From an uncultured Thalassolituus sp. (GTDB taxonomy: Bacteria; Pseudomonadota; Gammaproteobacteria; Pseudomonadales; Oceanobacteraceae), in the NCBI RefSeq assembly GCF_950066645.1, contig NZ_CATMFB010000011.1, positions 1-64,000 of the forward strand: 64,000 bases of DNA. The letters run 5' to 3'. The position numbers were made by a program, and so were the translations under genes. A model generated the notes under the pieces. It was not told the origin of the DNA. It did not search any database and saw only the letters and a program-made list of their open reading frames with translations. Positions 12,939 through 29,147 of the stretch are shown piece by piece (position 1 is the stretch's first letter; every line of letters begins with the position of its first letter).

Positions 12939-14804
12939 GTGTCCAGAATCATCAACATCACATTATTACTTTCCCTTCTTAGTTCACCTTTCGCATTTTC
13001 AGATACTGATAGTGATGGAGATCTTATCTGGGATATGCACGATAATTGCCCTGATATCGCGAACGCTGAACAACAGGATTATGATTCAGATGGCGAAGGA
13101 GACGCCTGCGACAATGATATAGACAACGATGGACTCACGAATGAGGAAGAAGACAACGTCGGTTCTGATTCCTACAATTCCAACGACTACACTATGGACA
13201 GTGATAGCGACGGATTCGGCAACCTGTTCGAAGCAATCGCGGGTACGGATCCACTCTCTTCTGAATCGCAGCCGATCATTCCAGGCAGCTATGATATTGA
13301 CCTGACCCAGAATCCAGATGATTTTCCCCTGGGCCTACAATCTGGTCAGTTGGCTGAGACACCAAATGGAATTCGGCTCAGCCTGCAGAGGTCAGCGACC
13401 GATGAAGATGAATATTTAACGGGTAAGTTGGCTTTGGCAACCAACTTCCCCGAACAAACTCTCGTCAACATAGTAGCTGAGCTTGATACTCCCGAAGGAA
13501 CTGCTGCCTCAACCAGGATTTACACTGATGGATCGGGGTCCGGCAGGTTCATCCAGGCTGACTCTGGCGAATTTGTCGTAGCTTCAAGAATCAGCGCTGG
13601 CCCAAGAATAGTTACGCTCAATTATTCTGCGTGGACATTAAGTGATGATCTTGCCCCAACACTTGTTCTAAAGAGGGTACTGACTGGTCAGGATACCGAC
13701 GACGATTATCTGCTTGTTCCTCTGGACGGCTGCCCGCTTGAGAGCTCGGGGCTTACTGACAGCGACGGCGACGGTCTGCAAGACGAATGCGATTATGATG
13801 AAGCAGACAGCGATTCTGATGGGGTTCCAGATGGCGGTGATAATTGCCCTACTGTATACAACCCATTCCAGGAAGCCTTAACCGATCAATACTATTTTTT
13901 CGGTGATGCCTGCAATCCTGATGACGATTTCGATGGCATTCCAGATGAGATTGAAGATCTGCTGGATTACCGGGACTCCAGAGGCGGGGACCTGGAGCGG
14001 CACGAATATGGGTTTCTGATTCATATTATTGATACAGATACCGACGGGGACGGGGCAAACGACGTTTACGAGATTAATACGGGTACAGACCCGTTCACCT
14101 TCGATACCTTTGAAACAATTTCGCTCACCGACTATGTGCCACTTGGTGACATTAAATACACTTACCGGGCACACGTGACAATTTCCCCTCCTGAATACAA
14201 CACCGATTATGAGGAAACTATTTCAGAAGAGTCTCCCGGTGTTTACAAAGAAACCGCTTACGGTTTGTTTGGAGGTGGACCTCATTACTACCGAATAGGC
14301 AAAGACGGCATCTACCTGAAAGGATATGACAACTGGCGAAATGGCGATGGCTACGAAGAAATTGACTTGCTGCACTTGCCATTCGAGCTTCAGGAAGGTG
14401 GTAGTGTACCATCATCAGGTGCCTCGAAATGCAGTGATGAAGGCTGCAGACCGCACTTTATCTATATGATTGATAAAGGCGAGATGTTCTTTGATGGTGA
14501 ATACAGGGAATACGTGACACTAGTCTCTTCTACATTTGGTTTTGACCTGTACTACATCTACCTTAAAGACATCGGCCTCTATGGCACTCACTATATGAAC
14601 CTAGTCGACTACGAGATCACTAACCGTGTCGATGTTGCTGCGATTGCCGCGGCCTTGCCAGAACCCGAAACGCCAGTGGAAGTGGAGCCACAACCCACCA
14701 GCGAATCATCGTCTTCCGGCGGCGGTGGCGGTGCGGTTAATCTGTTCTGGATGCTGTTAACGATGGTGAGTCTGATCTACCGCCGAAAATATCGGTCAGC
14801 ATAA
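12939..14804 (+). CDS. Thrombospondin type 3 repeat protein with GlyGly-CTERM anchor
   Basis: 621 residues from GTG 12939, eight bases after AAGGA. A Sec signal peptide (residues 1-21) is followed by calcium-binding TSP3/EF-like Asp-rich repeats at ~21-108 (DSDGDLIWDMHDNCPD, DIDNDGLTNEEE) and ~271-388. Then comes a beta-rich C-terminal domain. The last ~30 residues (SSSSGGGGG, then a hydrophobic stretch and YRRKYR) are a GlyGly-CTERM sorting signal, which a rhombosortase cleaves so that the protein reaches the cell surface or is released by type II secretion. It is a shorter paralogue of the protein at 25569-29147: both share the segment DTFE(T/S)ISL.DY.PLG. Role unknown; calcium-dependent adhesion or surface assembly is plausible. 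Confidence 0.85.
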   Translation: MSRIINITLLLSLLSSPFAFSDTDSDGDLIWDMHDNCPDIANAEQQDYDSDGEGDACDNDIDNDGLTNEEEDNVGSDSYNSNDYTMDSDSDGFGNLFEAIAGTDPLSSESQPIIPGSYDIDLTQNPDDFPLGLQSGQLAETPNGIRLSLQRSATDEDEYLTGKLALATNFPEQTLVNIVAELDTPEGTAASTRIYTDGSGSGRFIQADSGEFVVASRISAGPRIVTLNYSAWTLSDDLAPTLVLKRVLTGQDTDDDYLLVPLDGCPLESSGLTDSDGDGLQDECDYDEADSDSDGVPDGGDNCPTVYNPFQEALTDQYYFFGDACNPDDDFDGIPDEIEDLLDYRDSRGGDLERHEYGFLIHIIDTDTDGDGANDVYEINTGTDPFTFDTFETISLTDYVPLGDIKYTYRAHVTISPPEYNTDYEETISEESPGVYKETAYGLFGGGPHYYRIGKDGIYLKGYDNWRNGDGYEEIDLLHLPFELQEGGSVPSSGASKCSDEGCRPHFIYMIDKGEMFFDGEYREYVTLVSSTFGFDLYYIYLKDIGLYGTHYMNLVDYEITNRVDVAAIAAALPEPETPVEVEPQPTSESSSSGGGGGAVNLFWMLLTMVSLIYRRKYRSA

Positions 14805-14813
14805 GATTGGTAT

Positions 14814-14843
14814 AAAAAAAGAGCCGCTACTGCGGCTCTTTTT
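14814..14843. terminator. Bidirectional terminator
   Basis: AAAAAGAGCCGC and GCGGCTCTTTTT pair around TACT, with A- and T-runs on both sides. It lies between the convergent TSP3 and LuxR genes and can serve both. Confidence 0.9.
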
Positions 14844-14859: not shown

Positions 14860-15588
14860 TCAGATACAGCCCTGTCGTATGGCTCTCGCTACCAGCAGGC
14901 TACGGCTGTTTACGTTGAATTTTTTATAAAGATTATGCACATGGAATTTCGCGGTACGTTCAGACACGGACAGAATGACGCCGATTTCCCAGTTGGTCTT
15001 TCCTTCTGAGATCCACTTCAGTACTTCTGCTTCTTTCTGAGTAACGGAGGGTTGCTCGTCGAATTGCTTCACTTTCAGCAGATACGTCTGGATGCATGGC
15101 ATCAGGCTTTGCATAAACTGGTTTTCTGCGTGATCAAGCTGGCGATCCAACGCCAGAAAGAACATGCAGTTCAGCTGTTCGTCCTGAAAGTCCGTAGAGA
15201 CCTTTCCAACCAATGCCGGACCGCCCCCCGTATGGCGACCACACTCAGGCTCGTCGGCATCTGTTGAATCGAGTCGGAAGATGGTGTTGTTGAACGCATT
15301 CATCTGGCTGGCCAGCGAATTAGATTTCAGGTAATCCGACTGCAGATACACAGACTCATCGGTGACGTTGATGCCATGCACAGAGTCGATTGAACTGATT
15401 TCCCGGCCACTCTGTGAGCAGTTGATAAACACACCCCAGTCGACCGGAATCATATTACTGACACGCCCAAAGACTTCGTCAGCCACCTGTTTGCTGTCTG
15501 ACGCCAACAGCTTAAGGTGCAGATCCAGTAACCCCTGCTGAACACTATCCAGTACCGGATGTCCGAACGCTTCTTCCATCTGCATCAT
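14860..15588 (-). CDS. LuxR-family transcriptional regulator
   Basis: 242 residues. The C-terminal GerE-type helix-turn-helix is clear: TQKEAEVLKWISEGKTNWEI, then LSVSERTAKFHVHNLYKKF. The ~170-residue N-terminal part is a sensor domain of the general size of an autoinducer-binding or GAF-like domain, but its ligand residues could not be confirmed. AGGAG lies nine bases before the ATG at 15588. It is the last gene on the minus strand after the DUF1302 gene (120-base gap) and sits at the end of the acyl-metabolite/export cluster. It is the natural candidate to control that cluster, possibly by sensing its product. Confidence 0.88.
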   Translation of the reverse strand: MMQMEEAFGHPVLDSVQQGLLDLHLKLLASDSKQVADEVFGRVSNMIPVDWGVFINCSQSGREISSIDSVHGINVTDESVYLQSDYLKSNSLASQMNAFNNTIFRLDSTDADEPECGRHTGGGPALVGKVSTDFQDEQLNCMFFLALDRQLDHAENQFMQSLMPCIQTYLLKVKQFDEQPSVTQKEAEVLKWISEGKTNWEIGVILSVSERTAKFHVHNLYKKFNVNSRSLLVARAIRQGCI

Positions 15589-15708
15589 AGAACGCTACTC
15601 CTGAGCTGAGTTCCTTCTCTGGTCAGATCACACTGCCTGTCATCCGACGACAATACGAAATTGAAACAGCCAACACTGAGAATAGCAATTGATCTGATTT
15701 CATTCTCT

Positions 15709-16941
15709 TCAGAACTGCGCCGAAATCTTAAAATAGAGGCGGCTGTTGTCACTAAACTGTCCAAACTGGCTCCGTTTATGTCCAAAGTACTGGACCACAC
15801 CAGTATCTACGCTGACTTCCTGAGTCAGACGATAAATCAGATTCAGCTTATTGAGGTACCCAGTGCGACCTGACTCGCTGTCTGACAAGGTGTTATTCAT
15901 CAGTGTCAGCCGGTCTGCCCTGAAATTCTGGCTGACGGTGAATGACATCTGATCTGACCGCGCTCCATCAACATTGCCCTTTTCGGGCAGCCAGTGACGG
16001 GCAAATTGTATATTGGTGGTAAAAGCACTATAGGAATAATCGAATCCGATTAACGCGCTGCTTTTATCCGCCTGATCTGCCTCACCCTGTTGATTCCGAA
16101 CGTAACTGCCGGGCATGTATGCCAGATCACCACGGACGATCCAGCTAGCTATGGGGGTAGCCACCGACACACCCGCCAATTTTTTACGCCTCTGACTCAA
16201 CTCAGGTCGCCCTTCATCATCTGAAAGCAGGATAGGCTCACCATCCCAACCGTAATAGCTGTACAGGCCAAGGTCCCAGTCTTCTGCAGCCACAAAACGG
16301 TAGCGTAGTGCCGCTGACATCGCCTGCGCGGTATAGCTGTCAGGTTTGTCCCAATTGGGCCGTACCGGGCTACCTGCAAACAGATCAAACTCGGAGTCGA
16401 TGGCAGGTAAACGTGGTGCTTTCACCTCAGGAATAAGCAGCAATTGAATATCACCGTTATCAAGCATCCTGGTGGCATTCATCATGGTCAGAGGTAACCG
16501 GCCCTCTTCAAAGTCGTCAATATAAGCAAGCACATTTTCGCGGCCATCGAGTGGATTAACGACATCCAGAACCCGGAAATAATCGCCCTGCCCCCAGGTC
16601 ACCTGCTGTTTCCCCAACACCCACTCCCAGTTGCCCGCCATGCAGTTCAGGGTCAGTTGTCGTACTTCCAGACGGCTATCCCATTCCTGATCATCCGGGT
16701 CGCTTATCCCAGGCCTGGCGCGTTGATCTAATGCCATTCCGCGGATCTGATACGCAGCAACACAGGCATCACCGGCATCCAGTTCTCCACTGTATTTTGC
16801 GAAGAATTTGTCCGCTGCTTTGCCTGAAACTTCAGACCCATGATCGTGCTGATAGTACACTTCGGTCTGAGCCGTAGCGGACACTGGCAATGCCAGTGCC
16901 GCAACTGCAAGAACGAAGGCGGGCTTTGAGATGACCGCCAT
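15709..16941 (-). CDS. DUF1302-like outer-membrane beta-barrel protein
   Basis: 410 residues with a signal peptide (residues 1-25, ending SATAQ). Beta-strand-rich to a terminal Phe (YFKISAQF), typical of outer-membrane barrels. The block GKQQVTWGQGDYFRVLDVVN is characteristic of the DUF1302 family. The ATG overlaps the stop of the LolA-like gene upstream by one base. Such proteins are often encoded with RND/MMPL exporters and periplasmic lipoprotein-like carriers; here it is the likely outer-membrane exit or receptor of the transport chain. Confidence 0.8.
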   Translation of the reverse strand: MAVISKPAFVLAVAALALPVSATAQTEVYYQHDHGSEVSGKAADKFFAKYSGELDAGDACVAAYQIRGMALDQRARPGISDPDDQEWDSRLEVRQLTLNCMAGNWEWVLGKQQVTWGQGDYFRVLDVVNPLDGRENVLAYIDDFEEGRLPLTMMNATRMLDNGDIQLLLIPEVKAPRLPAIDSEFDLFAGSPVRPNWDKPDSYTAQAMSAALRYRFVAAEDWDLGLYSYYGWDGEPILLSDDEGRPELSQRRKKLAGVSVATPIASWIVRGDLAYMPGSYVRNQQGEADQADKSSALIGFDYSYSAFTTNIQFARHWLPEKGNVDGARSDQMSFTVSQNFRADRLTLMNNTLSDSESGRTGYLNKLNLIYRLTQEVSVDTGVVQYFGHKRSQFGQFSDNSRLYFKISAQF

Positions 16942-17756
16942 TACAGCCCCCGTTTAAGAGCAACCATGCTGAACTGTGCATCTTTAACCGGCAGGTTATA
17001 GTCGATGCTGTTCAGTTTCAGTTGCGTTACATCTCCCGTCTGGACGTTGTTTACGTGCAGCGAGGTGACGGTCCAGAACCCGTCTATCAGCTCTATCGTG
17101 TCAGCGGACATGGTTTTGATATGGTGTCCCTGCTCATCAAAGTATTCTTCTTTAATAATCAGATGACGCGCCGGATCTACCCAGGACACTTTACGGGTAT
17201 AACCAGTTTTAAACACCGTATTATCATTGGCAGCCTCACCCGTAATACGGGCAGTGCTGACACCATTGATCACTTCATTTCCGTCCAACTGATATCGGAA
17301 GTCCTGAAGCTGAAGGCGCTCAAGATCGGCAAATGACATTTCACTACTGACGAAGCGCCCACGCTTATTCTTAGATGATAAGCGCTTTACCTTTTTCATC
17401 GCCGGGATATAAATCCAGATATCGTCATCGCGATCAGACGCTTCTTCATACGCGTGAAGCATGACGCCAGTACCAGCCACATCGGCAGGCTGACTGACGT
17501 ATACCATCGACTTGCTGTCCTGCCCCTCATCGGTTTCCAGCATGGTGATATGCCGGACACGTTCGAAGCCATCTTTGCTGGTGAGCGTCATAGTAATGTC
17601 TGACTTACGGCTATCACCATCTGCACGAAACTTCACCTGCTGCATCAGTTCGTAGGCTGCCGGGTCACTTTCTGACGCACTGGCGAAGCCGGCCGAGAGC
17701 GAACAGATCAGTGCCACTGTGCTGATGGCCGTTTTCTTTAATGACGGTATTTTCAT
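16941..17756 (-). CDS. LolA-like outer membrane lipoprotein-sorting protein
   Basis: 271 residues with a signal peptide (residues 1-27, ending AGFASA). The body has the half-barrel LolA-type pattern: SDITMTLTSKDGFERVRHIT, MVYVSQPADVAGTGVML, DDIWIYIPAMKKVKRLSSKN and SEMSFADLERL. This is the outer membrane lipoprotein-sorting protein family, encoded beside RND/MMPL transporters. It probably shuttles a lipid or acylated molecule through the periplasm from the RND pump to the outer membrane. ATGA overlap with the upstream transporter gene shows tight coupling. Confidence 0.85.
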   Translation of the reverse strand: MKIPSLKKTAISTVALICSLSAGFASASESDPAAYELMQQVKFRADGDSRKSDITMTLTSKDGFERVRHITMLETDEGQDSKSMVYVSQPADVAGTGVMLHAYEEASDRDDDIWIYIPAMKKVKRLSSKNKRGRFVSSEMSFADLERLQLQDFRYQLDGNEVINGVSTARITGEAANDNTVFKTGYTRKVSWVDPARHLIIKEEYFDEQGHHIKTMSADTIELIDGFWTVTSLHVNNVQTGDVTQLKLNSIDYNLPVKDAQFSMVALKRGL

Positions 17757-20299
17757 GACACTGCCTCCTCTGCAGTCAGGGATAACTCTTCCTGTGGTGC
17801 ACCGACAGAGCCAGGGAAAAGACGGATAAGCATCGGTAATACAAAAAGAGTCGCCAGCGCAGAAATGACCATGGTCATCGCAATCAGGTACCCCAGATTG
17901 GCCAGTGCAGCGAATGTAGACAGACCCAACATAGAGAAGCCGAGACTAAGTACCAGAGTGTTAAAGATCACTGGCCGGTAAACCCCACTCAAAGCTTCTT
18001 CAATAGCTGGATTAACGTCCATTCCCTGCTCACGCTGCTGGCGGTAGCGGCTGATAAAGTGAATCGCGTAGTCGACACCTACACCAATCGCGATGGCGGC
18101 AACCAGTGACGTTCCGATATCCAGATCCATTCCAACCAGCGGCATAATCGCAAAGTTAATAAATACCGTCAGTGTGAGCGGCAAGGTACCAAGAATACCG
18201 AACACCGCAGAACGGAATACCAGCGCGAGCAGAACAAAAACGCCCAGCAGAGACCAGCTCAGGCTGGCGATCTGACCGTAGATCACTTCGTTCTTGGTTG
18301 ATACCAGAAGCTCACCAAAGCCGCTTGCCTCAATCTCAACAGAAGGCGGCAGCACCGAGCGGGCGTAAGGCAGAACATCATTCAGAGTCGCTTCCATCAC
18401 GCTCGACTGATCAGAGTGGTTAAACACAATAATCCGCGCGTTCTGATATTTCTGATCTACGGTATCAAAAATGCCCCGGCCATCACTGCTCTCGTACAGG
18501 AAGAAATACTGCGCCAGCAGATCATCACCACCCTCAGGCAGCGCAAAGGCTTCTTCGCCACCCGCCAGCAATCGCTGATTGAGGAGTTTAATGAAATCGA
18601 CCGGTGAGTAGCTGAAACCAACGTCTTCATGTTCGGCCAGGCGTGCCTGAATTTTCTCGATGGCCTGCAGCAGTTCCATCTGCTTAAACGTGTCTGGGGC
18701 ATCCGCTTTCAGGGTAATGCTGAACAGCATGGTACCGGCAAAGTAGCTGTTAATGATCTCATCATCGACACGGATCTGACTGTCAGCATCAAAGTACTTA
18801 ATCGCTTTGTTATCAATATTCAGTTGCGACAGTGATACACCCATCACAGCAACCAGAACGATAAATGCGAGTCCGGCCGCTTTTGAGTTGCGTGCCAGGC
18901 CATTATTCACAGCCAGTACCGAGTTTTTAAGTTTGCGGTCAATCATATTGTCGTCGGTCGGATCTTCCGCCGGTTTTACGCGGGCGAACTTCAGCAATAC
19001 CGGCGGCAGAAGCAGCATGGTAATGATCAGTGCGAAACACACGCCCACTGCCACAAACAAACCGAACTCACGGATAAAGGTGATATCGGTATTCATCAGT
19101 GACAGGAAGCCAACGGCAGTCGTCAGACTGGTTACCAGCATAGGAGCCCAGAGGGCTTTCAGTGTCTGAGACAGTGCCCGCTCTTTAGAACCACTCTTCG
19201 CGTGATGTGAAAATTCAGCGAGGAAGTGAATAGCATCCGCGACCCCAATAGAAATCAGGAAGACCGGCAGCATCGTGGATACGATATTCTGTTTCACACC
19301 GAAGGCCGTCATCACTCCCAGCGTCCAGATGACGCTCAGGATAGCAATCGTCAGAGGCAGCAGAACACCACGTGGATTACGGAACATAATCAGCAGCACC
19401 GCCATCACCACCAGAATGACCGCCGGGAAGAGGCGATCACTGTTTTCTTTCATGGATACTGCCGTCTGACCCGCCGTGACCGGGGCGCCACCCAGGTGAT
19501 AGCTATTTACGTCAGAGGTCTGCCCGATCAGAGCCTGAGTTGCCAGATAGAAGAGCTGCATATTTGGAGCATCGTCTTCCGGAATCAGCAACTCTACCTG
19601 CATATTGGTTGCTTTTGCCGTGGTCTCAAACAGTGCGCCCATCAGCACCTGATTTGAGAGTGCTTCTTCTCTGAGGTCCTGAATGCCCTGCTCGGTGCGA
19701 GGAACGGAGAACATCATCGGATGAATATCCAGCATATCGTCTTCGCTGGTAATACTCTCAACACTGACAATACTGCGGACTTTTTTCACCGGACGAACAC
19801 GGATAAGAAAATCATTCAGCCAGTTCTGCTGCGTAACACTCAGGTTACCAGTGCTTTTCAGGTAGCTTTTCAGATCGACCACACGATCGTAGTCTTCCGG
19901 AGAGAAACCACCGTCGACAATCTGCTCGATAATCACACTGGCACGCTGATCTGCACCCAGACTATCGAGCATCGCTCTGTCACTGTCGCCAGCCAGGGTG
20001 ACTGCCAGAATGTTATGGTGCAGGTCATAGATTTCCTGCAATGACTGACGGTTAAAAATAGTCTCGCTGTTACTCACAACAGAGATAAACAGGGACTCTC
20101 CGCTGGTCGTGAACTGATCTTTCACGTAAAAATCAGCCTGACGGCTGGCATGATCCGGCCCTAAAAAATAAGGCGTTGCGTTAGTTTTCATATTGGGCAG
20201 CTGACCAAGTGCTGCCACCGTAATACCGATAAGTACCAGTAAAGATACCCACCAGAAACGCTGCATCGCATTGCTGTATCGTTCAGCGAAAGTTTTCAT
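17753..20299 (-). CDS. RND/MMPL-family exporter
   Basis: 848 residues from ATG 20299, which follows AGGA by seven bases (an in-frame GTG at 20329 would overlap the upstream gene). Two repeats each contain a hydrophobic N-terminal helix, a large periplasmic loop and a five-helix sterol-sensing-like bundle. Diagnostic segments are LISIGVADAIHFLAEFSHHA in the first half and AIAIGVGVDYAIHFISRYRQ in the second. These acidic helix-4 motifs (GVADAIHF, GVGVDYAIHF) carry the proton-relay residues of MMPL/HpnN-type lipid exporters. Together with the LolA-like and DUF1302 genes it forms an export chain for a hydrophobic compound made by the upstream enzymes. Confidence 0.92.
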   Translation of the reverse strand: MKTFAERYSNAMQRFWWVSLLVLIGITVAALGQLPNMKTNATPYFLGPDHASRQADFYVKDQFTTSGESLFISVVSNSETIFNRQSLQEIYDLHHNILAVTLAGDSDRAMLDSLGADQRASVIIEQIVDGGFSPEDYDRVVDLKSYLKSTGNLSVTQQNWLNDFLIRVRPVKKVRSIVSVESITSEDDMLDIHPMMFSVPRTEQGIQDLREEALSNQVLMGALFETTAKATNMQVELLIPEDDAPNMQLFYLATQALIGQTSDVNSYHLGGAPVTAGQTAVSMKENSDRLFPAVILVVMAVLLIMFRNPRGVLLPLTIAILSVIWTLGVMTAFGVKQNIVSTMLPVFLISIGVADAIHFLAEFSHHAKSGSKERALSQTLKALWAPMLVTSLTTAVGFLSLMNTDITFIREFGLFVAVGVCFALIITMLLLPPVLLKFARVKPAEDPTDDNMIDRKLKNSVLAVNNGLARNSKAAGLAFIVLVAVMGVSLSQLNIDNKAIKYFDADSQIRVDDEIINSYFAGTMLFSITLKADAPDTFKQMELLQAIEKIQARLAEHEDVGFSYSPVDFIKLLNQRLLAGGEEAFALPEGGDDLLAQYFFLYESSDGRGIFDTVDQKYQNARIIVFNHSDQSSVMEATLNDVLPYARSVLPPSVEIEASGFGELLVSTKNEVIYGQIASLSWSLLGVFVLLALVFRSAVFGILGTLPLTLTVFINFAIMPLVGMDLDIGTSLVAAIAIGVGVDYAIHFISRYRQQREQGMDVNPAIEEALSGVYRPVIFNTLVLSLGFSMLGLSTFAALANLGYLIAMTMVISALATLFVLPMLIRLFPGSVGAPQEELSLTAEEAVS

Positions 20300-20322
20300 A
20301 ATCTCATCCTGTTCAGTATTTT

Positions 20323-21483
20323 TCAGCACGGCTGCAGAGCCATAAATTCATTACGGATCTCTTTCCAGATCGCGTTCTTCTGGATTTCTGCCGTTCCTCC
20401 TGCGATGGTTGCGCCAAGAGAATCCAGCATGCGGCGGCAATACGGCGTGTCGTGTTTGTAGCCGTGATTACCAAAGATCTGGATCGCACTTTTGGCACAA
20501 TCGAACGTCCATTCAGCGGCGTTCATTTTGGCGATAGAAGCTTCCATAGAGGCGTTCTCGCCCTTGCAGAATTTATCCAGAGCCTTGTAGCCCATCGTGC
20601 GCGCAATTTCGTAATGAGAACGCATGCCTACCAGGCGCTCCTGGATGTACTGGTATTCAGCAATCGGACGCTCGAATGCTTTCCGTTCAAAGCTGTAAGA
20701 CAAAGCACTCTGGTAGGTCGGCAAGGCATAGGCATTCACCGCGATCGCGGCGAGAATCCGCTCGTACAGAAACGCATAACGCAGCACGCCAACGCCACCA
20801 CCGACGGAGCCCAACACATGATCATCCGATAACGCATGGTCGTTAAACGAAATACTGCCCGTGGGGGTGCAGCGGTTACCGATCAGTGGAAACGGCTCCG
20901 AACGGACAATCGAATCGCCATTGGTTTCGCAGATATACGCAGTAATATTCTGCTTTTCTGGAAGATGCGGAGAACGGGCAAAGAAAATAAGAAGGTCAGC
21001 GACAGGCGCATTGGTTATGTTCCACTTAGTACCATTCACCAGATAACTGTCTTCGCCGTTCAGCTCGGCGAGGGTAGAAATACGCACGACATCAGAGCCA
21101 CAATGCTGCTCAGTAATTGCAAAGCTGCCGACATACTCACCCGACCCCAGCTTCGGCAGATACTTCAGACGCTGCGCCTCGGTACCGAACTTAAGCAGCG
21201 CTCCCTGCATCAGTGCAACATGCGCAATAAGTGAAACAATGATTGAAAAGTCATCACACCCTTCAACCAGGCCTTCAAGCGCGGCCGCAAAATCCATTTC
21301 GGTCAGGCCCTGACCACCATATTCCTGAGGAATATGCAGACGAAAAAAACCGGTATCCGCGAGCTTCTTCCAGGTGTCATAGCAGAAGCTACCAGCACTG
21401 TCGCGATGTACCGCCTCGGGAGCGATCTGTTCCCGGGCATAGTTTTCATAAAACGACTTCAGTTCCATCTGTACCTTATTCAT
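20323..21483 (-). CDS. Acyl-CoA dehydrogenase family protein
   Basis: 386 residues, the full length of the family, with FAD-binding YVGSFAITEQHCGSDV near 117-132 and the C-terminal signature IAGGTAEIQKNAIWKEI. Where many members carry the catalytic Glu (YEGT) this one has AGGT. Glu241 in FLYERILAA fits the alternative position used in isovaleryl-CoA/long-chain enzymes, so it may still be active. The ATG at 21483 follows AAGGAG by five bases. Its place in a biosynthetic-looking operon suggests it desaturates or oxidises an acyl intermediate rather than serving general beta-oxidation. Confidence 0.92.
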   Translation of the reverse strand: MNKVQMELKSFYENYAREQIAPEAVHRDSAGSFCYDTWKKLADTGFFRLHIPQEYGGQGLTEMDFAAALEGLVEGCDDFSIIVSLIAHVALMQGALLKFGTEAQRLKYLPKLGSGEYVGSFAITEQHCGSDVVRISTLAELNGEDSYLVNGTKWNITNAPVADLLIFFARSPHLPEKQNITAYICETNGDSIVRSEPFPLIGNRCTPTGSISFNDHALSDDHVLGSVGGGVGVLRYAFLYERILAAIAVNAYALPTYQSALSYSFERKAFERPIAEYQYIQERLVGMRSHYEIARTMGYKALDKFCKGENASMEASIAKMNAAEWTFDCAKSAIQIFGNHGYKHDTPYCRRMLDSLGATIAGGTAEIQKNAIWKEIRNEFMALQPC

Positions 21484-21502
21484 GTGAACTCCTTATCTGA
21501 TA

Positions 21503-22381
21503 TCAGGCTGTGATCAGCTCTTTGGTTAAGTGGGAGAGTTTTTCTGTCACCTGAGCCATGCGCTCCGTGCGCAACATCAACCAGGTGTCGTTATCCATTT
21601 CCAGAGCCTGGTTGAACCAGGCGAGGGCACTGCAGTCCATATCACTGAGACGGAAAGCAAACGGCAGGAGGTCGTCTGCGAAATAGCGGGGGTAATAGAG
21701 GTGATCTGGCGGCAGCAGACGCTCACCCACTTCTGCGAAGCAATAATTCACGCCCAGCGCCAGAAGATTGCGAATCTGAATGTTTTTCTCACCGTCGCCA
21801 ATAATGGCAACGGCATCACTGCCGGGAGTCTGCAGATATTCAAAGGCCGCAAGTAACATTTCACTGACCGAGCGCACCGCCAGCGGGTCGTTTTTTCTTA
21901 ACCAGCCATTGCGGACAACCCGCCCGACTTCACGGACCTGACGCACCGGAAGAAACTCCAGCCAGGGGATGTTACGGAAGGCCGCCCTCCCCCAGGCATT
22001 TTCCGTTGCCAGAAGCGGACGACTACGATCCCCCATCAGGCCGCGATAATTTACCGGCTTTTTAATGGTGCAGTACGCCAGCAGCTCGCCCGTCATCGAA
22101 TTCAGCACAATGCAGTGAATGTCCTCTGCGGTGAGCGAGTCGACAGGCTCGCACTCAAGCGCAAGCTGCTCAGCCAGTGATTCATTCAGAAAGCCCACCG
22201 CAGCATAATGAACAAATGCAAACCTCAGCAGATCTTCATTATCCTGCTGAGAAAGCTCATCACTGCTGATCAGCAGGCTGGTCACCCCCTGACGCTCGTG
22301 CTGAATATACTGCTGACGTTCAAGCAGATGGGGTAACCTGGGAGGCTGATAGCGCTGCACCAGAGACTCAAAGTAACTCAT
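21503..22381 (-). CDS. GNAT-fold acyltransferase of LuxI/FeeM-like type
   Basis: 292 residues. The centre reads VREVGRVVRNGWLRKND at ~149-165, matching the E-x-x-R core (Glu151, Arg154) of autoinducer synthases and long-chain N-acyl amino acid synthases. Then follow a helix (VRSVSEMLLAAFEYLQ) and IRNLLALGVNYCFAEVGERL, as in the C-terminal half of that fold. Such enzymes transfer a fatty acyl group from acyl-ACP or acyl-CoA to an amine. The ~90-residue C-terminal extension is not typical of LuxI. It starts one base after the ThiF-like gene stop, with AGGA eight bases upstream. Acyl donor and acceptor are unknown. Confidence 0.65.
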   Translation of the reverse strand: MSYFESLVQRYQPPRLPHLLERQQYIQHERQGVTSLLISSDELSQQDNEDLLRFAFVHYAAVGFLNESLAEQLALECEPVDSLTAEDIHCIVLNSMTGELLAYCTIKKPVNYRGLMGDRSRPLLATENAWGRAAFRNIPWLEFLPVRQVREVGRVVRNGWLRKNDPLAVRSVSEMLLAAFEYLQTPGSDAVAIIGDGEKNIQIRNLLALGVNYCFAEVGERLLPPDHLYYPRYFADDLLPFAFRLSDMDCSALAWFNQALEMDNDTWLMLRTERMAQVTEKLSHLTKELITA

Positions 22382-22382
22382 G

Positions 22383-23276
22383 TCAGGCTTCCTGCTCGGC
22401 GGCCTGCATGGCGTCCTGGATATAACCAGTGAGCCACGCCTGCTTCGTCAGTAAATCCAGTTTCTGCTCATCGTTCAGCTGAATCCCCAGCAGGTCACTG
22501 ACGTTGATATTCAGTTCTTTCTGAAGCGCCTGGCCTTCAAGAACTTTCACCAGAGTCCAGACCGCCACCAGGCCGAACAGATCCGCTGCGACACCCAGCT
22601 GAGAGACAAAGTCTTTCCCCTGAAGAAGTACGGCTTCAAGTTCTGCATACATTTCATAGGGAATTTCTTTCACCGGCACCAGCAGCGCACAACAGATGAG
22701 GGCCGGGAGCTGATCAATCTGGTCTTCCGTAATCCGGTTATCCAGCAGAGACTGCTCAGGCTTGCGATAATCCAGAACATTGATGTACTGACACGCCGCC
22801 ATGTCATAGCCGCTGACAACCACTTTGTTGTTAGCTTTGGCATAACGATGCAATTCGTATTTTGCTTTCAGGCCCGACGTAGTGGTGACATCCACACCGT
22901 CGATAATGATATCTGCGCGTGTTACCAGCTCTTCAACGTTCTCGGCGGTAATCCCAGACGACCAGGTTTCAACGCTGACATACGGATTAATGGCAGCACA
23001 GATTTCGCGGAAGACATCTACCTTCATCCGGCCGTCATCCGCCAGCGTCATCTTCTGGCGGTTCGCATTATTCACCTCGTAACTGCCGTTATCCGCTAAC
23101 AACAGATGGGTAAAACCCGTTCTGACCAGAAGTTCGACGGTGCTTCCGCCGGTCGACCCACAACCGGCAACCAGTACGGTTGAACCCGCGATTTTCTGCT
23201 GCAGCTCCGCTGAGATAAAGGTGGTGTTACGCAGTGTCAGCTCACGATAGAGGTCGGCCGCCATAGTACTTTCCAT
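22383..23276 (-). CDS. E1/ThiF-family adenylating enzyme
   Basis: 297 residues. It has the E1-like Rossmann motif GCGSTGGS at 38-45, the acidic residue Asp62, and the ATP-binding block NNANRQ at 69-74 followed by Lys85. These are hallmarks of enzymes that adenylate a carboxylate, as in ThiF, MoeB, HesA and MccB. The two CxxC zinc pairs of ThiF/MoeB are not seen. A cysteine at about 178 (GYDMAACQYINV) could act in transfer. AAGGAG seven bases before the ATG makes it the first gene of the operon. No ubiquitin-like or short precursor peptide gene is visible next to it, so its substrate may be a small carboxylic acid. Confidence 0.85.
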   Translation of the reverse strand: MESTMAADLYRELTLRNTTFISAELQQKIAGSTVLVAGCGSTGGSTVELLVRTGFTHLLLADNGSYEVNNANRQKMTLADDGRMKVDVFREICAAINPYVSVETWSSGITAENVEELVTRADIIIDGVDVTTTSGLKAKYELHRYAKANNKVVVSGYDMAACQYINVLDYRKPEQSLLDNRITEDQIDQLPALICCALLVPVKEIPYEMYAELEAVLLQGKDFVSQLGVAADLFGLVAVWTLVKVLEGQALQKELNINVSDLLGIQLNDEQKLDLLTKQAWLTGYIQDAMQAAEQEA

Positions 23277-23335
23277 GTTTTCGCTCCTTGGGTTGGTTTA
23301 GCAGTTAAGCTACCAAGGGACTGAAACAGGGGTAA

Positions 23336-23351
23336 CTGTCCGACCGGACAG
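23336..23351. promoter_or_regulatory. Palindromic operator candidate upstream of the ThiF-like operon
   Basis: CTGTCCGACCGGACAG is a perfect 7+7 inverted repeat with a 2-base centre, 60 bases before the ThiF start. Further CTGTCA half-words follow at about 23358-23383. It is suitable for a dimeric regulator such as the cluster's LuxR protein. Confidence 0.6.
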
Positions 23352-23486
23352 GCAGGGCTGTCACAAAACTGTCAACCTGTCAGAAATTGCCCTCAACTTG
23401 CACCCGCTGCTGGTGCAGGGCAAAATTCGCGCACAATCACTAAAGTCATCCTTGTGCCTTCCGGGGCATACGCCACGGTTATCCAG

Positions 23487-25469
23487 ATGCTCCAGAAACA
23501 CCAGCTCGAACTGTTAAGCCCTGCCCGCGACGTCAACATCGCGAAAGAGGCCATCCTGCACGGTGCCGATGCGGTGTATATCGGGGGGCCGGGCTTTGGG
23601 GCACGCCATAACGCGGCGAACTCGGTGAGCGACATTGCCGATCTGGTGAGCTTTGCCCACCTGTTCCACGCCAAGGTGTTCGTGACCATGAACACCATCC
23701 TGCATGATGACGAAGTCGAGCCTGCACGCAAGCTGATCCACCAGCTGTACGACGCCGGCGTGGATGCCTTGATTGTTCAGGATATGGGTGTGATGGAGAT
23801 GGATATTCCACCGATTGAGCTGCATGCCTCGACTCAGTGTGATATCCGCCGTTTAGAGAAAGCGCAATTTTTATCCCAGGCGGGCTTCTCGCAGATCGTT
23901 CTGGCCCGTGAATTGAATCTGCAGCAGATCAAAGAGATCAGTGATTCTGTTGATGCCGCTGTGGAATTCTTTATCCACGGGGCACTGTGCGTTGCTTTCT
24001 CGGGCCAGTGCAACATTTCGCACGCGCAGACGGGCCGCAGCGCCAACCGTGGCGACTGTTCACAGGCCTGCCGTCTGCCGTACACCTTGAAAGACGACGC
24101 AGGTCGTGTCGTTGCCTACGACAAGCACCTGCTGTCGATGAAAGACAATAACCAGACGGATAACCTGCGCGCCCTGGTCGACGCAGGTGTACGCTCCTTC
24201 AAAATCGAAGGACGCTATAAAGACGTCAGCTATGTAAAAAACATTACGGCGCATTATCGTCAGTTACTGGATGAAATTCTGACCGATCGCCCGGATCTGG
24301 CGCCAGCCTCCAGTGGTTATACCCAGCACTTTTTTGCGCCGAATCCCGATAAAACCTTCCATCGTGGCAGCACCGATTATTTTGTCTCGGATCGAAAAAT
24401 CGACATCGGTGCCTTTGATTCGCCAAAATTCGTCGGCCTGCCTGTCGGCCAGCTGATCGGCATTGGTAAGAAAGACCTGACCGTCCAGACCGACACAGAA
24501 CTAACCAACGGCGATGGTCTGAATATTCTGGTGAAACGCGAAGTAGTGGGCTTCCGCGTGAATACCGTACAACAGTTATGTGAATTTGACGACGAAGGCA
24601 CACACTACTGGCAGTACAAGGTAACACCGAATGAAATGCCAGAAGAGATGGCGCGTGTACGCCCGCCTGTCGCACTCAATCGCAACCTCGACCATAACTG
24701 GCAGCAGGCGCTGCTGAAGACCTCGGCCGAGCGTCGCGTGCTGGTGAACTGGCAGATTGCAAGTACTCAAGCGGCACTCACCGCAACGGTTACCAGCGAA
24801 GAAGGCATCAGTGCTTCTGTGACGCTCGAAGGCCCTTTCGAAGCAGCCACCAACGCAGAGAAATCGATGCAGCAACTGCAGGACACCTTCTCGAAGCTGG
24901 GCACGACCATATACCACGCCGACAACATCAATATCGAAGGCGATGCCTGGTTTATTCCCGGCTCGCAGCTGAAAACTTTACGTCGTGATGCCATTGAAGC
25001 CTTAACAGCTGCCCGCATTGCCCAGCACCCACGCGGCTCGCGTAAAGCCGTCAGCGACCCTGCCCCGGTGTACCCGGACACTGCGCTGTCGTTCCTGGAT
25101 AACGTCTATAACGAAAATGCCCGTGCCTTCTACAAGCGCTTTGGCGTTGAGTTAATCGAACCAGCTTTTGAAGCCCACGCAGAGACCGGCGACGTGCCAG
25201 TGATGATTACCAAGCACTGCCTCCGCTTCTCGTTCAACCTCTGCCCGAAACAAGCCAAAGGCGTCACCGGTGTCATCACTAAGGTGAAAGACATGCAGCT
25301 GGTTCACGGTGATGAGGTACTGACGCTGAAGTTCGACTGCAAGCCGTGTGAGATGCACGTCGTTGGCAAGATCAAACCCCATATTTTCAAATCGGCCCTG
25401 CCCGGAAGCATAGAGAGCGGCGTCGGCATGTTTGATCCGGCCGATCTGATCGCCAGCAGTCGCGATTGA
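23487..25469 (+). CDS. rlhA: 23S rRNA 5-hydroxycytidine synthase, U32 peptidase family
   Basis: 660 residues from ATG 23487; an in-frame GTG at 23454 would extend it. It follows E. coli RlhA (YdcP) almost throughout: LELLSPARD at the start, AILHGADAVYIGGPGFGARH, and the U32 signature EFFIHGALCVAFSGQC with RGDCSQACRLPY. The C-terminal cysteines KHCLRFSFNLCPKQ and DCKPCEMHV are also present. These cysteines form the conserved iron-sulfur/cluster site. RlhA hydroxylates C2501 of 23S rRNA, using prephenate in E. coli. It is divergent from the ThiF-like operon. Confidence 0.93.
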   Translation: MLQKHQLELLSPARDVNIAKEAILHGADAVYIGGPGFGARHNAANSVSDIADLVSFAHLFHAKVFVTMNTILHDDEVEPARKLIHQLYDAGVDALIVQDMGVMEMDIPPIELHASTQCDIRRLEKAQFLSQAGFSQIVLARELNLQQIKEISDSVDAAVEFFIHGALCVAFSGQCNISHAQTGRSANRGDCSQACRLPYTLKDDAGRVVAYDKHLLSMKDNNQTDNLRALVDAGVRSFKIEGRYKDVSYVKNITAHYRQLLDEILTDRPDLAPASSGYTQHFFAPNPDKTFHRGSTDYFVSDRKIDIGAFDSPKFVGLPVGQLIGIGKKDLTVQTDTELTNGDGLNILVKREVVGFRVNTVQQLCEFDDEGTHYWQYKVTPNEMPEEMARVRPPVALNRNLDHNWQQALLKTSAERRVLVNWQIASTQAALTATVTSEEGISASVTLEGPFEAATNAEKSMQQLQDTFSKLGTTIYHADNINIEGDAWFIPGSQLKTLRRDAIEALTAARIAQHPRGSRKAVSDPAPVYPDTALSFLDNVYNENARAFYKRFGVELIEPAFEAHAETGDVPVMITKHCLRFSFNLCPKQAKGVTGVITKVKDMQLVHGDEVLTLKFDCKPCEMHVVGKIKPHIFKSALPGSIESGVGMFDPADLIASSRD

Positions 25470-25568
25470 CCTTAATGACGCAAGTGTCCTGTCGCGACGA
25501 GACATCGTCTATTTATTGAACATTTGGTAATATCACGTCACTCAATAACCGACATGGACGTGGTATTT

Positions 25569-28500
25569 ATGGCCCTCCTTAAGCAGTTGGCAAAGGCTAC
25601 AGGAGTCTTCGCTTTATTTAGTTCAGCAATAACCAACGCTGCTGTTCTTGAAATCCGTGAGCACGATGATGTTGTTTACGCGCTGACCAGCAACCAGGCC
25701 ATCCTGCGCTTTGACCTGGCTTCAGGCTCCGAGCTGACACCAATCGCGCTTGCCAATCCAGCACAGCACTTCACGATTGACGGCGATGACGTCATCACCG
25801 CTAACAACCGTGAACTTCGCTCAGTATCTCTTATTGACGGCAGCACCAGCTACATTGGCGGCACCTCTTCGAATATCTCTGCGATTGGTGCTGAAAGTGG
25901 AGTGATTATTACTTATGAAGCGGATGAATATTCCCGAACCTATTCCTCCGAAGGCACTGTTCTCGCAAGCCGATCATTTTCATCCGCAAACATCAGGTTT
26001 GCCCAGAGCAAATCTGCAACGGCGATCACCTATCTTGATGACGGTTACGAGGATGTCTGTCACCTGACGATTTCAGACAGCAATACCACTGACCGTTCCT
26101 GCGAAGATGTCTACTATTCCGAGTTCGGCACCGCATCGGCGATCACAGCGGCGGCAGCGCACCTCGTGATATTGAATACTGGCTACGTGGTCGATACTGA
26201 CTTAGCTAAAGTCGCCTCCCGATTGCCTGCGCTTGATATCCAGGCATCTGCCAGTCTGGAAAACTCATTATTAGTTAAAACATCGACCGGACAACTTGAA
26301 CAATACTCCATTCGGGGCGTAAAAGAAGGTAGCTACAGTGGCCTTGGAACTGAAAATTATCTGACAGCCTATACCGACGAGTTCGTAGGCCTGACGATTA
26401 CAGACAGCGAAATTACTGGCCAGTATTTCTCTCCTGAGATTGACCTCACCCCAACACCGGTCGTTAACGATGTGCCTGTGCTTCCAGCAAATAGCGCCAG
26501 CATCATTCCTGAAAAAATTCTCACAAATCAGGATGGAAAGGCACTTATATACGATGCCGAAACAGCAGGGTTATATGTATGGAGCGTGGCCGATAACGCT
26601 TACGTAACGAGCTATTACGCTGGCAACGATCTGGTTGATGCAACGTATGACAAATACTCAGACGCCATTTTCAGTGTTCACCGGGATGGCTTTCTTAAAA
26701 AAATTGACCTGACCGATACGTCTTCGGTACTGACTTCCATTGCCTATCTACCCGGCTCAGATGCACAGCGCATTGTGACGTATATGGACAAGTTCTACGT
26801 GAAACAAAATAGTTCACGTCAACACATCCTGGCTCCTGATGGAGCGTTCACTGGAGTCTTTTCGTATAGCTCGGGCAACGCAGACCCAAGTCATTGGGAT
26901 GATGAAACGAGTGCATATTTCACACTGTCCGGAAGTTATCTTTACAAATACTCCTACGACACCGCCACCGAATCACGGACAGCATCGCAAAATATTTCTA
27001 CGGGAACACTCCCAGAGCGACGTTTTTCGATGCTTCCGGAACTGGACGTAATTGCGTTAAGTAACGGTAAGCTTATGTCCCTGAGCTCGCTGTCCAATAC
27101 CAGGACACTCAGCACCAACATTTACGATGCTGCCTATCCTGCTGGCTCATTGATGACAGTATCCGCCGATCGCTCGGCACTTCAGGCCTGGTCGGCCTCT
27201 GGTGAACTTCTCAATAGCATACCTCAGGCAGCAAGCAGTGACCTCCGACTGGTATACGACGAAACCTATCTGGCTCTCGTGCGGGTGTCAGAAGAGGGGA
27301 CCGTGATTACCCGCTACAACCTGGTATCAGATGCAGATGTTGACTCAGACGACGTTTCTGATCTGTTCGACAATTGTCCCGACATCAGCAACGGTGATCA
27401 GGCAGACCTGGACGGTGACAATATCGGTGACGTCTGTGATCAGGATGAAGATGGCGATGGTATACCCAATGCAATAGAAGACGAAGTCGGCCTGAATGCC
27501 CGGGATGAAAGCGACCGCGAGACCGATCTCGACTCAGATGGCATACCGAACTACTACGAATACCTGACAGGTACGCCTATTGATGAGACTACCACTTTAT
27601 CGCTTAGTGGCAATTTCAGCATTACCTTCGATGATGGACTGATTCCATCGTATCTGGTGACCTCCGGCGGAACATGGTTTGTATTGGAAGATATTTCCTA
27701 CAACGTCGATGGATATGACCTCAGAGCGCCAGCGGCATTGGATAATGCGCCACTCCCGTATGTTCTGTTTTATGCCGTTTTCGATGGAACTGGAGATCTC
27801 CGCTTCGAAATCACAACGGACAACTCTTACTACTCGGATCAACCCAAAGTAGTAAAAGTGTATATCGACGACGTGGAGTTTGATTACCGCTATCGGGACG
27901 GGTATCGATATGTGGATGGAGGAGAAATTTCAAACGGTGTTCATGCCGTGAAAATAGAGCTGCAGGTTCCCGGGCGCAACTGGAACGACCCGGATGAACA
28001 ACTTGTCCTCGATAACATAACTTACGAACCTTATATCGGTCCGGATTATGATGAAGACGGGGTACCAGACGCCACAGATAACTGCAAATACGATAGTAAT
28101 CCATCCCAGAGTGACGCTGATGGCGACGGTAGGGGTGATGCCTGCGATAGTTATAACAACATCGATTATGATGAAGATGGTGTAGCAGACAGCATTGACA
28201 ACTGTATGTACGACTACAACCCATCTCAGGCGGACAGTGACTCTGACGGTAACGGAGACGCATGTGACAGCTCCTTCACGCTCGACGGCGACCGGGACGG
28301 TGTTGATGATAGCTGGGACAACTGTCCGACAGTCAGCAACCCCGATCAGGAAGATCAGGACTATGACTACATCGGTGATGCCTGTGACGACGATATCGAT
28401 GGCGACGGACTGTCGAACTCAACAGAAGAAAGCCTTGGGCGGGATGCCTACACAAGAGAAAGCGTTTGGTATGACTCCGATAATGATGGTGTAGCAGACG

Positions 28501-29147
28501 CTTTCGAGGAAAGATTTGGGACGTCCCCTAGCAGTGTCGATACATTCGAAAGCATATCCCTGCGAGACTACTTTCCGCTGGGCAATCTTCAGCAGAGCTA
28601 TGTCTATACCGATCAGAGTTACCAGGTAACTATCACCGCACTTGGTGATGACCGATATCAGTTTAAGTACGATGATTCTGACTGCTATCGTGTGACGGAA
28701 AAGCGCAGCGATGGGATCTATCTGGTTGAAATCCAGTGTCCGGATGACAATTATCGCTCTGAATTCACAGACTATATGATCTTCCCGGCCGAGATGACTC
28801 CAGGGGAGCCTATGTTTATCTCAGGCAGTGTTGCCCGCTATAAAGACGATCAACTGGAGAGAACCGAAGCACTGTCTTACACCATCACCCTCATCGGCCA
28901 GTCAACCTATGACTTCAACGGGGCAACCTATCAGTCCATTGACATCATGTACGGAAACTCAATGAGCCACGTTGAAACCTACGCGGAGGGTCTTGGTTAC
29001 GTCACCGACGGATATCTTAAATTGTCAGATTTTCAGGCATCAGATATCGACGAATGGAAGAGCAGCTCGTCGGGCTCAGGCGGGGCGATCAACCCCTTCT
29101 GGCTTCTGATCGCTCTTGTAGGGTTAGCATTCAGACGACGTGCCTGA
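25569..29147 (+). CDS. Giant TSP3-repeat surface protein with GlyGly-CTERM anchor
   Basis: 1192 residues from ATG 25569, chosen because it gives a normal Sec signal (MALLKQLAKATGVF to AITNAA); ATG 25554 is the alternative. Residues ~30-580 are a repetitive beta-propeller-like region (ILRFDLASGSEL, GLYVWSVADN, LKKIDLTDTS). TSP3/EF-like Asp-rich calcium repeats lie at ~588-670 and ~826-961, for example DYDEDGVPDATDNC. A beta-domain separates them. A C-terminal domain shared with 12939-14804 precedes the GlyGly-CTERM tail (SSSSGSGGAINPFW...FRRRA). Rhombosortase processing and type II secretion are expected. Role unknown. Confidence 0.85.
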   Translation: MALLKQLAKATGVFALFSSAITNAAVLEIREHDDVVYALTSNQAILRFDLASGSELTPIALANPAQHFTIDGDDVITANNRELRSVSLIDGSTSYIGGTSSNISAIGAESGVIITYEADEYSRTYSSEGTVLASRSFSSANIRFAQSKSATAITYLDDGYEDVCHLTISDSNTTDRSCEDVYYSEFGTASAITAAAAHLVILNTGYVVDTDLAKVASRLPALDIQASASLENSLLVKTSTGQLEQYSIRGVKEGSYSGLGTENYLTAYTDEFVGLTITDSEITGQYFSPEIDLTPTPVVNDVPVLPANSASIIPEKILTNQDGKALIYDAETAGLYVWSVADNAYVTSYYAGNDLVDATYDKYSDAIFSVHRDGFLKKIDLTDTSSVLTSIAYLPGSDAQRIVTYMDKFYVKQNSSRQHILAPDGAFTGVFSYSSGNADPSHWDDETSAYFTLSGSYLYKYSYDTATESRTASQNISTGTLPERRFSMLPELDVIALSNGKLMSLSSLSNTRTLSTNIYDAAYPAGSLMTVSADRSALQAWSASGELLNSIPQAASSDLRLVYDETYLALVRVSEEGTVITRYNLVSDADVDSDDVSDLFDNCPDISNGDQADLDGDNIGDVCDQDEDGDGIPNAIEDEVGLNARDESDRETDLDSDGIPNYYEYLTGTPIDETTTLSLSGNFSITFDDGLIPSYLVTSGGTWFVLEDISYNVDGYDLRAPAALDNAPLPYVLFYAVFDGTGDLRFEITTDNSYYSDQPKVVKVYIDDVEFDYRYRDGYRYVDGGEISNGVHAVKIELQVPGRNWNDPDEQLVLDNITYEPYIGPDYDEDGVPDATDNCKYDSNPSQSDADGDGRGDACDSYNNIDYDEDGVADSIDNCMYDYNPSQADSDSDGNGDACDSSFTLDGDRDGVDDSWDNCPTVSNPDQEDQDYDYIGDACDDDIDGDGLSNSTEESLGRDAYTRESVWYDSDNDGVADAFEERFGTSPSSVDTFESISLRDYFPLGNLQQSYVYTDQSYQVTITALGDDRYQFKYDDSDCYRVTEKRSDGIYLVEIQCPDDNYRSEFTDYMIFPAEMTPGEPMFISGSVARYKDDQLERTEALSYTITLIGQSTYDFNGATYQSIDIMYGNSMSHVETYAEGLGYVTDGYLKLSDFQASDIDEWKSSSSGSGGAINPFWLLIALVGLAFRRRA

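Follow-up and report, generated by a model that had tools for sequence, protein, structure and literature searches.

The OxzAB enzymes of Pseudoalteromonas rubra, reportedly discovered by de Rond, Asay and Moore in 2021, belong with TyzACB and with TrzAS (Mycobacterium tuberculosis) to systems that bring together an N-acyltransferase of the acyl-homoserine lactone (AHL) synthase fold, a ThiF protein and a flavin desaturase in one cluster. Published schemes of acyl-oxazolone synthesis combine an acyltransferase, a ThiF and a flavoenzyme (PMC10404671, PMC12856293), and TyzA has been reported to resemble AHL synthases and FeeM (PMC10404671). The thalassotalic acid, kyonggic acid and stieleriacine clusters yield N-acyl dehydrotyrosines, and an oxazolone has so far not been observed from them (PMC12479983). 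A transport cassette has also been described, AmeABCD of Castellaniella defragrans, which combines a DUF1302 protein, a LolA/DUF1329 protein and an HAE3 resistance-nodulation-division (RND) pump, is placed in the HAE3 branch and is called an efflux transporter (PMC6394551). P. putida cannot metabolize Tween 20 without a DUF1302/DUF1329 pair, which correlates with a periplasmic protein and a transporter (PMC10866462), and cassettes of this kind are of importance when cells grow on monoterpenes and Tween 20. Here we investigate an operon from an uncultured Thalassolituus sp. in which genes of both kinds stand together, at positions 14860-23276 (minus strand) of a stretch of 64,000 nucleotides (contig NZ_CATMFB010000011.1; this whole stretch is the window). 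We put at about even the chances that this operon builds an amino-acid-derived lipid and passes it through the envelope. The product predicted as likeliest is an N-acyl (dehydro)amino acid or the corresponding oxazolone, which would be moved outward.

The operon comprises six tightly packed genes and a LuxR gene, all with intact open reading frames (ORFs) in the ORF list and the sequence. In order, these encode a ThiF/E1-like adenylating enzyme, a probable activator/cyclase of an N-acyl amino acid (22383-23276, 297 aa); a GNAT protein of predicted AHL-synthase/FeeM fold, probably an N-acyl amino acid synthase (21503-22381, 292 aa); an acyl-CoA dehydrogenase-type flavoprotein, probably a Calpha-Cbeta desaturase (20323-21483, 386 aa); an MMPL-family RND transporter, possibly of HAE3 type (17753-20329, 858 aa by a GTG start); a LolA-like/DUF1329-like protein (16941-17756, 271 aa); a DUF1302 protein, by analogy with AmeA a probable outer-membrane barrel (15709-16941, 410 aa); and a LuxR-type regulator (14860-15588, 242 aa), all on the minus strand. 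One base separates ThiF from GNAT and 19 bases separate GNAT from the dehydrogenase. For the MMPL gene, the ATG at 20299 (17753-20299, leaving a 23-base gap to the dehydrogenase) fits the relatives better than the GTG, which gives a 7-base overlap. The MMPL and LolA-like genes overlap by 4 bases and the LolA-like and DUF1302 genes by 1 base, and 120 bases lie between DUF1302 and LuxR. Six of the seven genes are over their Pfam cut-offs, the GNAT being the exception. An earlier sequence-only reading of the window had described this minus-strand set of six, its order, its tight spacing and the LuxR gene 120 bases on, and ORF list, sequence and Pfam bear it out.

The GNAT was used as the query for finding related loci. 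It matched in 8 of the 44 genomes of the window's family (its own included) and in none of 49 further genomes of the order or 8 other genomes of the genus. Wider samples gave 2 of 369 genomes of the class (the window's own and G127) and 3 of 398 of the phylum (its own, G500 and G805), and there were matches in 5 of 298 genomes from the genus of G805. A named scan with two peptide patterns found at least 16 loci: ten in Pseudomonas (three titled P. alcaligenes), two in Oleispira, and one each in Thalassolituus, Thalassobium, Saccharospirillaceae and an unclassified gammaproteobacterium. Locus L031 is from Pseudomonas subflava. With each locus counted once and that of G033 (L016) included, the block order recurs in 17 other loci, 16 of them complete and one (L033) cut in the MMPL gene by a contig end; L085, from G805, has the same block and possibly represents a species already counted. 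The six genes form a real unit, beyond chance, because the same order recurs in the 17 loci. The earlier proposal of a single conserved unit that combines carboxylate activation, acyl transfer and oxidation with a route through the envelope is supported, and the separation of the genes in relatives, which had been named as what would speak against it, was not seen in the 17 loci found via the GNAT (G127, described below, is without the dehydrogenase). Since the loci were found in this way, the comparison asks only whether this GNAT occurs without the rest; it covered the loci other than the neighbourhoods of G843, G883 and G945.

In all 17 other loci the ThiF and GNAT marker motifs lie in a single reading frame, which suggests that the two proteins share a substrate. 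The window is the only split case among the loci seen. In L021 the fused frame stops early in the GNAT part, at about 10630, and one in-frame TAG is reported at 154390-155235 of contig C19 in G883; we read these as decaying copies or sequencing errors. In the 16 complete relatives ThiF-GNAT is followed by the dehydrogenase, MMPL, an additional protein of some 300 residues, LolA-like and DUF1302. This extra protein (7298-8239 in L012, 7344-8252 in L016, and counterparts), between MMPL and LolA-like, has a signal-peptide-like start and belongs to no Pfam family. It is not in the window, and a search of the window's genome at E 10, run without a positive control, gave no match. A PAS-domain gene lies upstream of the block in five of five relatives tested.

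A distant version of the block is present on two contigs of G127 (L036 and L070; contigs C25 and C100). Its ThiF is 34% identical to that of the window and its LolA-like, MMPL and DUF1302 genes 24-27%, while the GNAT, 30% identical, is fused to a domain scoring on cyclic-nucleotide-binding-type models. Ligase-like, patatin-like and further acyltransferase-like genes were also recognized by eye. The GNAT is present, and the dehydrogenase profile found no match in the two stretches. That G127 keeps ThiF, GNAT and the envelope set supports the unit, yet the dehydrogenase is not indispensable to it. The ends of C25 and C100 share a sequence stretch.

The dehydrogenase has three Pfam Acyl-CoA_dh domains (1e-31 to 4e-16). 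Its nearest solved protein is 4irn (2.5e-52), a prolyl-ACP (acyl carrier protein) dehydrogenase that we take to be AnaB, and acyl-CoA and isovaleryl-CoA dehydrogenases score nearly as well, from 5.2e-51. The best NCBIfam rows are PigA and RedW types, none reaching its cut-off. Isovaleryl- and long-chain enzymes use the Glu of the WER/YER segment as catalytic base, and E241 aligns with this Glu in 4irn and in the isovaleryl-CoA dehydrogenase 4kto; where 5lnx has YEGT, the window enzyme has IAGGT, without a Glu. In long-chain acyl-CoA dehydrogenase, Glu291 is named as the base (PMC11153573). The enzyme may act on an activated amino acid and not on a fatty acyl chain, so that of the acyl oxidation proposed earlier the dehydrogenase itself stands and its substrate becomes doubtful. 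It is about 42-44% identical to its block relatives and 25-35% (over aligned parts) to the other dehydrogenases of its own genome. That a beta-oxidation enzyme was recruited here by accident is unlikely, since the protein is nearer to the former than to the latter. A dehydrogenase tree (12 of the 17, with L085) was not usable, its outgroup branches being saturated and block support 64/46.

A nitroreductase profile, built on the nitroreductase parts of four proteins in which that enzyme is fused to ThiF, matched none of 28 stretches from this system (21 once repeats are set aside), the whole window included. It matched six of seven comparison stretches around other ThiF genes, although four of these six are profile sources, and with the sources removed two of three match independently, one of them weakly (2.5e-17). 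A dehydrogenase profile of eight rows (the window and seven of the related loci) matched 26 of the 28 stretches, the two misses being those of G127, and none of the seven comparison stretches. The pattern is consistent, in a small sample, with one desaturase having been replaced by another.

The ThiF protein matches its Pfam family at 7e-28. Its ATP-site residues are invariant and align with those of MoeB-like and TcdA-like proteins of the same genome. In TrzS an Asp of the ATP-site motif is required for cyclisation (PMC12856293), and D129 is its proposed equivalent in the window. Its structure model is of lower confidence than that of the GNAT (pLDDT, the predicted local distance difference test score, 75) and placed AclA (9egb) and E. 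coli ThiF in a tie at the top. The nitroreductase-linked ThiFs of L045, L050, L063 and L039 pass NCBIfam NF006077 with 320-456 bits; below its cut-off are the window ThiF, its fused relative L018 and the ThiF of G127. This reference set is OxzB-type by gene architecture, and P. rubra OxzB, TyzB and TrzS themselves are not in it. A tree was made of 43 rows, 42 of them different, with 12 of the 17 fused proteins; L047, L052 and L056 were left out, L046 and L059 were repeats under a second label, and L064, a nitroreductase-kind fusion, carried no group label. In it the window ThiF groups with the fused proteins (99/97) and then with G127 (100/99), and the nitroreductase-linked ThiFs form a separate clade (98/94), the deeper join being weak (68/83) with long branches. 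A housekeeping role as ThiF, MoeB or TcdA was considered and rejected: the block ThiF is apart in the tree from the genome's two other PF00899 genes, which are MoeB-like and TcdA-like by eye. Nor did ThiF or GNAT reach any curated NCBIfam housekeeping cut-off, so the housekeeping match that the sequence-only reading had held out as a counter-sign was not seen. In another genome (G157), an NF006077-group ThiF lies near LolA-like and MMPL-like genes (L075, 6044-12162); that 14-kb stretch had no match to the nitroreductase profile or the block GNAT.

Sequence searches with the GNAT gave nothing in Pfam (E up to 10), NCBIfam (E up to 0.1) or the PDB, and neither did a PDB search with its profile. 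The AlphaFold model predicts an AHL-synthase/GNAT fold, closest to AHL synthases and FeeM, which agrees with its first description as a LuxI/FeeM-like GNAT.

For the RND pump (PF03176, 5.5e-36) the best NCBIfam row is TIGR00921 HAE3 (2.7e-55), its 187.7 bits lying under the 351.9-bit cut-off, and Asp-bearing motifs begin at residues 363 (VADAIHF) and 751 (GVDYAIHF). The LolA-like protein (PF17131, 5.6e-46; PF07044, 6.3e-11) and the DUF1302 protein (PF06980, 2.1e-9) have N-termini that are signal-peptide-like by eye. DUF1302 and DUF1329/LolA-type proteins thus identified, both over their Pfam cut-offs, stand in one operon. Of the export route proposed earlier, the AmeABCD-like gene set is present, and its direction may be outward.

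The helix-turn-helix (HTH) of the LuxR protein resembles those of CviR and LasR. GerE (4.1e-18) is the only Pfam match at E up to 10, with no autoinducer-binding domain among the hits, and the top PDB alignments hardly extend beyond the HTH (CviR, 2.7e-13, over the HTH only). No homologue was found at 1e-20 in 92 related genomes, and the gene is not common to the block relatives. Upstream of ThiF, a lux-box-like site (23334-23353) has 14 of 20 matches to the lux box consensus; it is the single best position in the window, where 12 positions reach 13. A perfect palindrome lies at 23336-23351, with 7-base arms and a 2-base spacer; the window has six of this kind, one with CTG/CAG ends. Of 2000 shuffles of the intergenic region 13 reach the lux-box score, a count that is a guide only because the lux box was chosen after the palindrome was seen. 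The promoter scan listed no sigma-70-like site ahead of ThiF. The LuxR may belong to the system here and control the operon via this candidate site.

How might these proteins act together? On the most economical reading, the GNAT, from its fold, would transfer a fatty acyl chain from CoA or ACP onto an amino acid, at its amine. The ThiF, from its family and conserved ATP-site residues, would adenylate the carboxylate, and attack by the amide oxygen would close a 5(4H)-oxazolone. The dehydrogenase could then remove the acidic alpha proton and a beta hydride to give a dehydro amino acid unit, a different fold doing the work of the nitroreductase-family oxidases in OxzB, TyzC and TrzS. The RND pump, LolA-like carrier and DUF1302 barrel would deliver the product to the outer membrane or out of the cell, in the manner of AmeABCD, and the LuxR may regulate the operon at the lux-box-like site. 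What is observed is the set of genes, its conserved order, the fusion of ThiF and GNAT in nature, the predicted folds, and a dehydrogenase where no nitroreductase was found.

Several results weigh against this pathway. The main reason for caution about ring closure is that the window ThiF lies outside the nitroreductase-linked clade; its own clade is long-branched, and the enzyme may catalyse something else. Its NF006077 score is 82.8 bits against a cut-off of 266, aligned only over the first half. The GNAT has no profile similarity to OxzA-type acyltransferases (0.2% probability). In the structural ranking that puts AHL synthases and FeeM nearest, the AHL synthase EsaI is only 28th, and plain Foldseek has RpaI first (5.6e-6) and FeeM 26th (4e-4), with AHL synthases mixed among other GNATs. 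The profile comparison is small, with seven comparison stretches of which four are the nitroreductase profile sources. Acyl-CoA dehydrogenases normally act on thioesters, and this habit counts against the pathway together with the lack of room for a carrier protein: no ACP gene fits in the operon, to which the search was confined, its gaps being at most 120 bases. As a chemical argument, the alpha proton of an oxazolone is acidic like that of a thioester, which could allow an enzyme with the dehydrogenase fold to work on it without a carrier protein. Finally, DUF1302/DUF1329/RND sets are also of importance for growth on hydrophobic substrates, which could fit uptake.

Three other explanations are less likely. 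In the first, the operon yields an N-acyl amino acid without a ring, or its amide or ester, with an unsaturated acyl chain: the dehydrogenase would supply 2-enoyl-CoA to the GNAT, and the ThiF would adenylate for another nucleophile, with no ring. The usual thioester substrates of the dehydrogenase family, the FeeM-like GNAT fold and the position of the ThiF outside the nitroreductase-linked clade would all suit such a product, which is close to the earlier fee-like idea. However, the best solved match of the dehydrogenase is the prolyl-ACP enzyme (fatty and branched acyl-CoA dehydrogenases being nearly equal), the block shows no enzyme for a second coupling partner, and the flavin dehydrogenase occupies the place that the nitroreductase has in other acyltransferase/ThiF sets. 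Thalassolituus and Oleispira are hydrocarbon degraders, and the Tween 20 requirement for DUF1302/DUF1329 genes in P. putida likewise invites the idea that the RND/LolA/DUF1302 route imports a hydrophobic compound from the environment for the enzymes to modify. Such uptake or turnover is quite unlikely, as the fold of an N-acyl amino acid synthase and a ThiF that uses ATP point to biosynthesis, Pfam found among the seven genes no hydrolase, thiolase or hydratase, and AmeABCD is termed an efflux transporter (PMC6394551). Least probable is a ribosomally synthesized and post-translationally modified peptide (RiPP) made with a ThiF of the MccB, PaaA or IndF kind. ThiF-like RiPP enzymes are described, and MccB and PaaA are among the structural rows for ThiF, but many E1-like folds score alike there, the gaps leave hardly any space for a precursor (no search aimed at short ORFs was made), and a fused GNAT and lipid-type transport do not fit.

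The synthesis and export of an N-acyl (dehydro)amino acid or its oxazolone could be carried further. In such an extension, which we regard as unlikely, the dehydrogenase acting on the azlactone would be a second, unrelated fold for dehydro-amino-acid oxazolones, and the operon a signalling circuit in which LuxI-fold and E1-fold enzymes make an AHL look-alike that is secreted, read by the LuxR at the lux-box-like site and drives the operon.

Around the operon, a hairpin and T-run after LuxR (14814-14843, minus strand), read off the sequence and not listed by the consensus scan, is the probable terminator of the unit. The G+C content of the operon is 51.6% and that of the window 52.0% (left part 48.9%, right part 53.3%), and base composition gives no clear sign of foreign origin. 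The divergent neighbour (23454-25469) is peptidase U32-like by eye; it had no match at 1e-100 in the eight other genomes of the genus searched, so the stretch around it may be variable. Operon and neighbour are flanked by two large proteins (12939-14804 and 25524-29147), both with D-x-D-x-D-type repeats and Gly-rich, hydrophobic, Arg-rich C-termini.

If the pathway is correct, the logic of oxazolone or N-acyl-dehydro-amino-acid synthesis exists with a second, unrelated desaturase, and also comes with acyltransferase and activating enzyme naturally fused, an envelope route and possibly a regulator. The physiological role of oxazolones has been called a major unresolved question (PMC12856293). 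A compact operon in Pseudomonas and Thalassolituus species would make function, secretion and regulation addressable by gene removal.

The earlier statement that no described system has this exact set stands in that no paper uniting ThiF, acyl-CoA dehydrogenase and this transport set was found, in a literature search covering few subscription journals; both halves, though, have precedents in the acyl-oxazolone logic and in AmeABCD. With FeeM and the fee clusters the window shares a GNAT of predicted AHL-synthase fold, while its operon has no room for a fee-type ACP gene. To our knowledge, a ThiF and a dehydrogenase beside such a GNAT are not features of fee clusters. AnaB, RedW and PigA have the acyl-CoA dehydrogenase fold on an activated amino acid, and the Glu is placed as in 4irn, but the operon has no carrier protein gene and its dehydrogenase reaches no NCBIfam cut-off of these types. 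Compared with OxzAB, TyzACB and TrzAS, the window has a ThiF in a separate clade, an acyl-CoA dehydrogenase fold with no nitroreductase match, and an outer-membrane route. As far as sequence and models indicate, it has the acyltransferase fold of the acyl-oxazolone pathways but falls outside them by its ThiF group and by the nitroreductase that was not found. TrzS, as described, fuses ThiF to its oxidase, whereas the relatives of the window fuse ThiF to the acyltransferase. OxzB is also a fusion of ThiF and oxidase. The thalassotalic acid, kyonggic acid and stieleriacine clusters likewise keep an N-acyl amino acid synthase, a ThiF and a desaturase together, theirs being of the nitroreductase type (PMC12479983). 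The window and AmeABCD have in common a DUF1302 protein, a DUF1329/LolA-type protein and an RND pump, which is of HAE3 type in AmeABCD and has HAE3 as its best NCBIfam row, under cut-off, in the window. No ThiF or GNAT gene is described for that cassette (PMC6394551), and nothing like its other periplasmic protein, AmeC, is encoded from DUF1302 to ThiF in the window. A transporter of the same family also accompanies one of the oxazolone systems: tyz is flanked by mmpL9 (PMC10404671), and the window has an MMPL gene within the operon itself.

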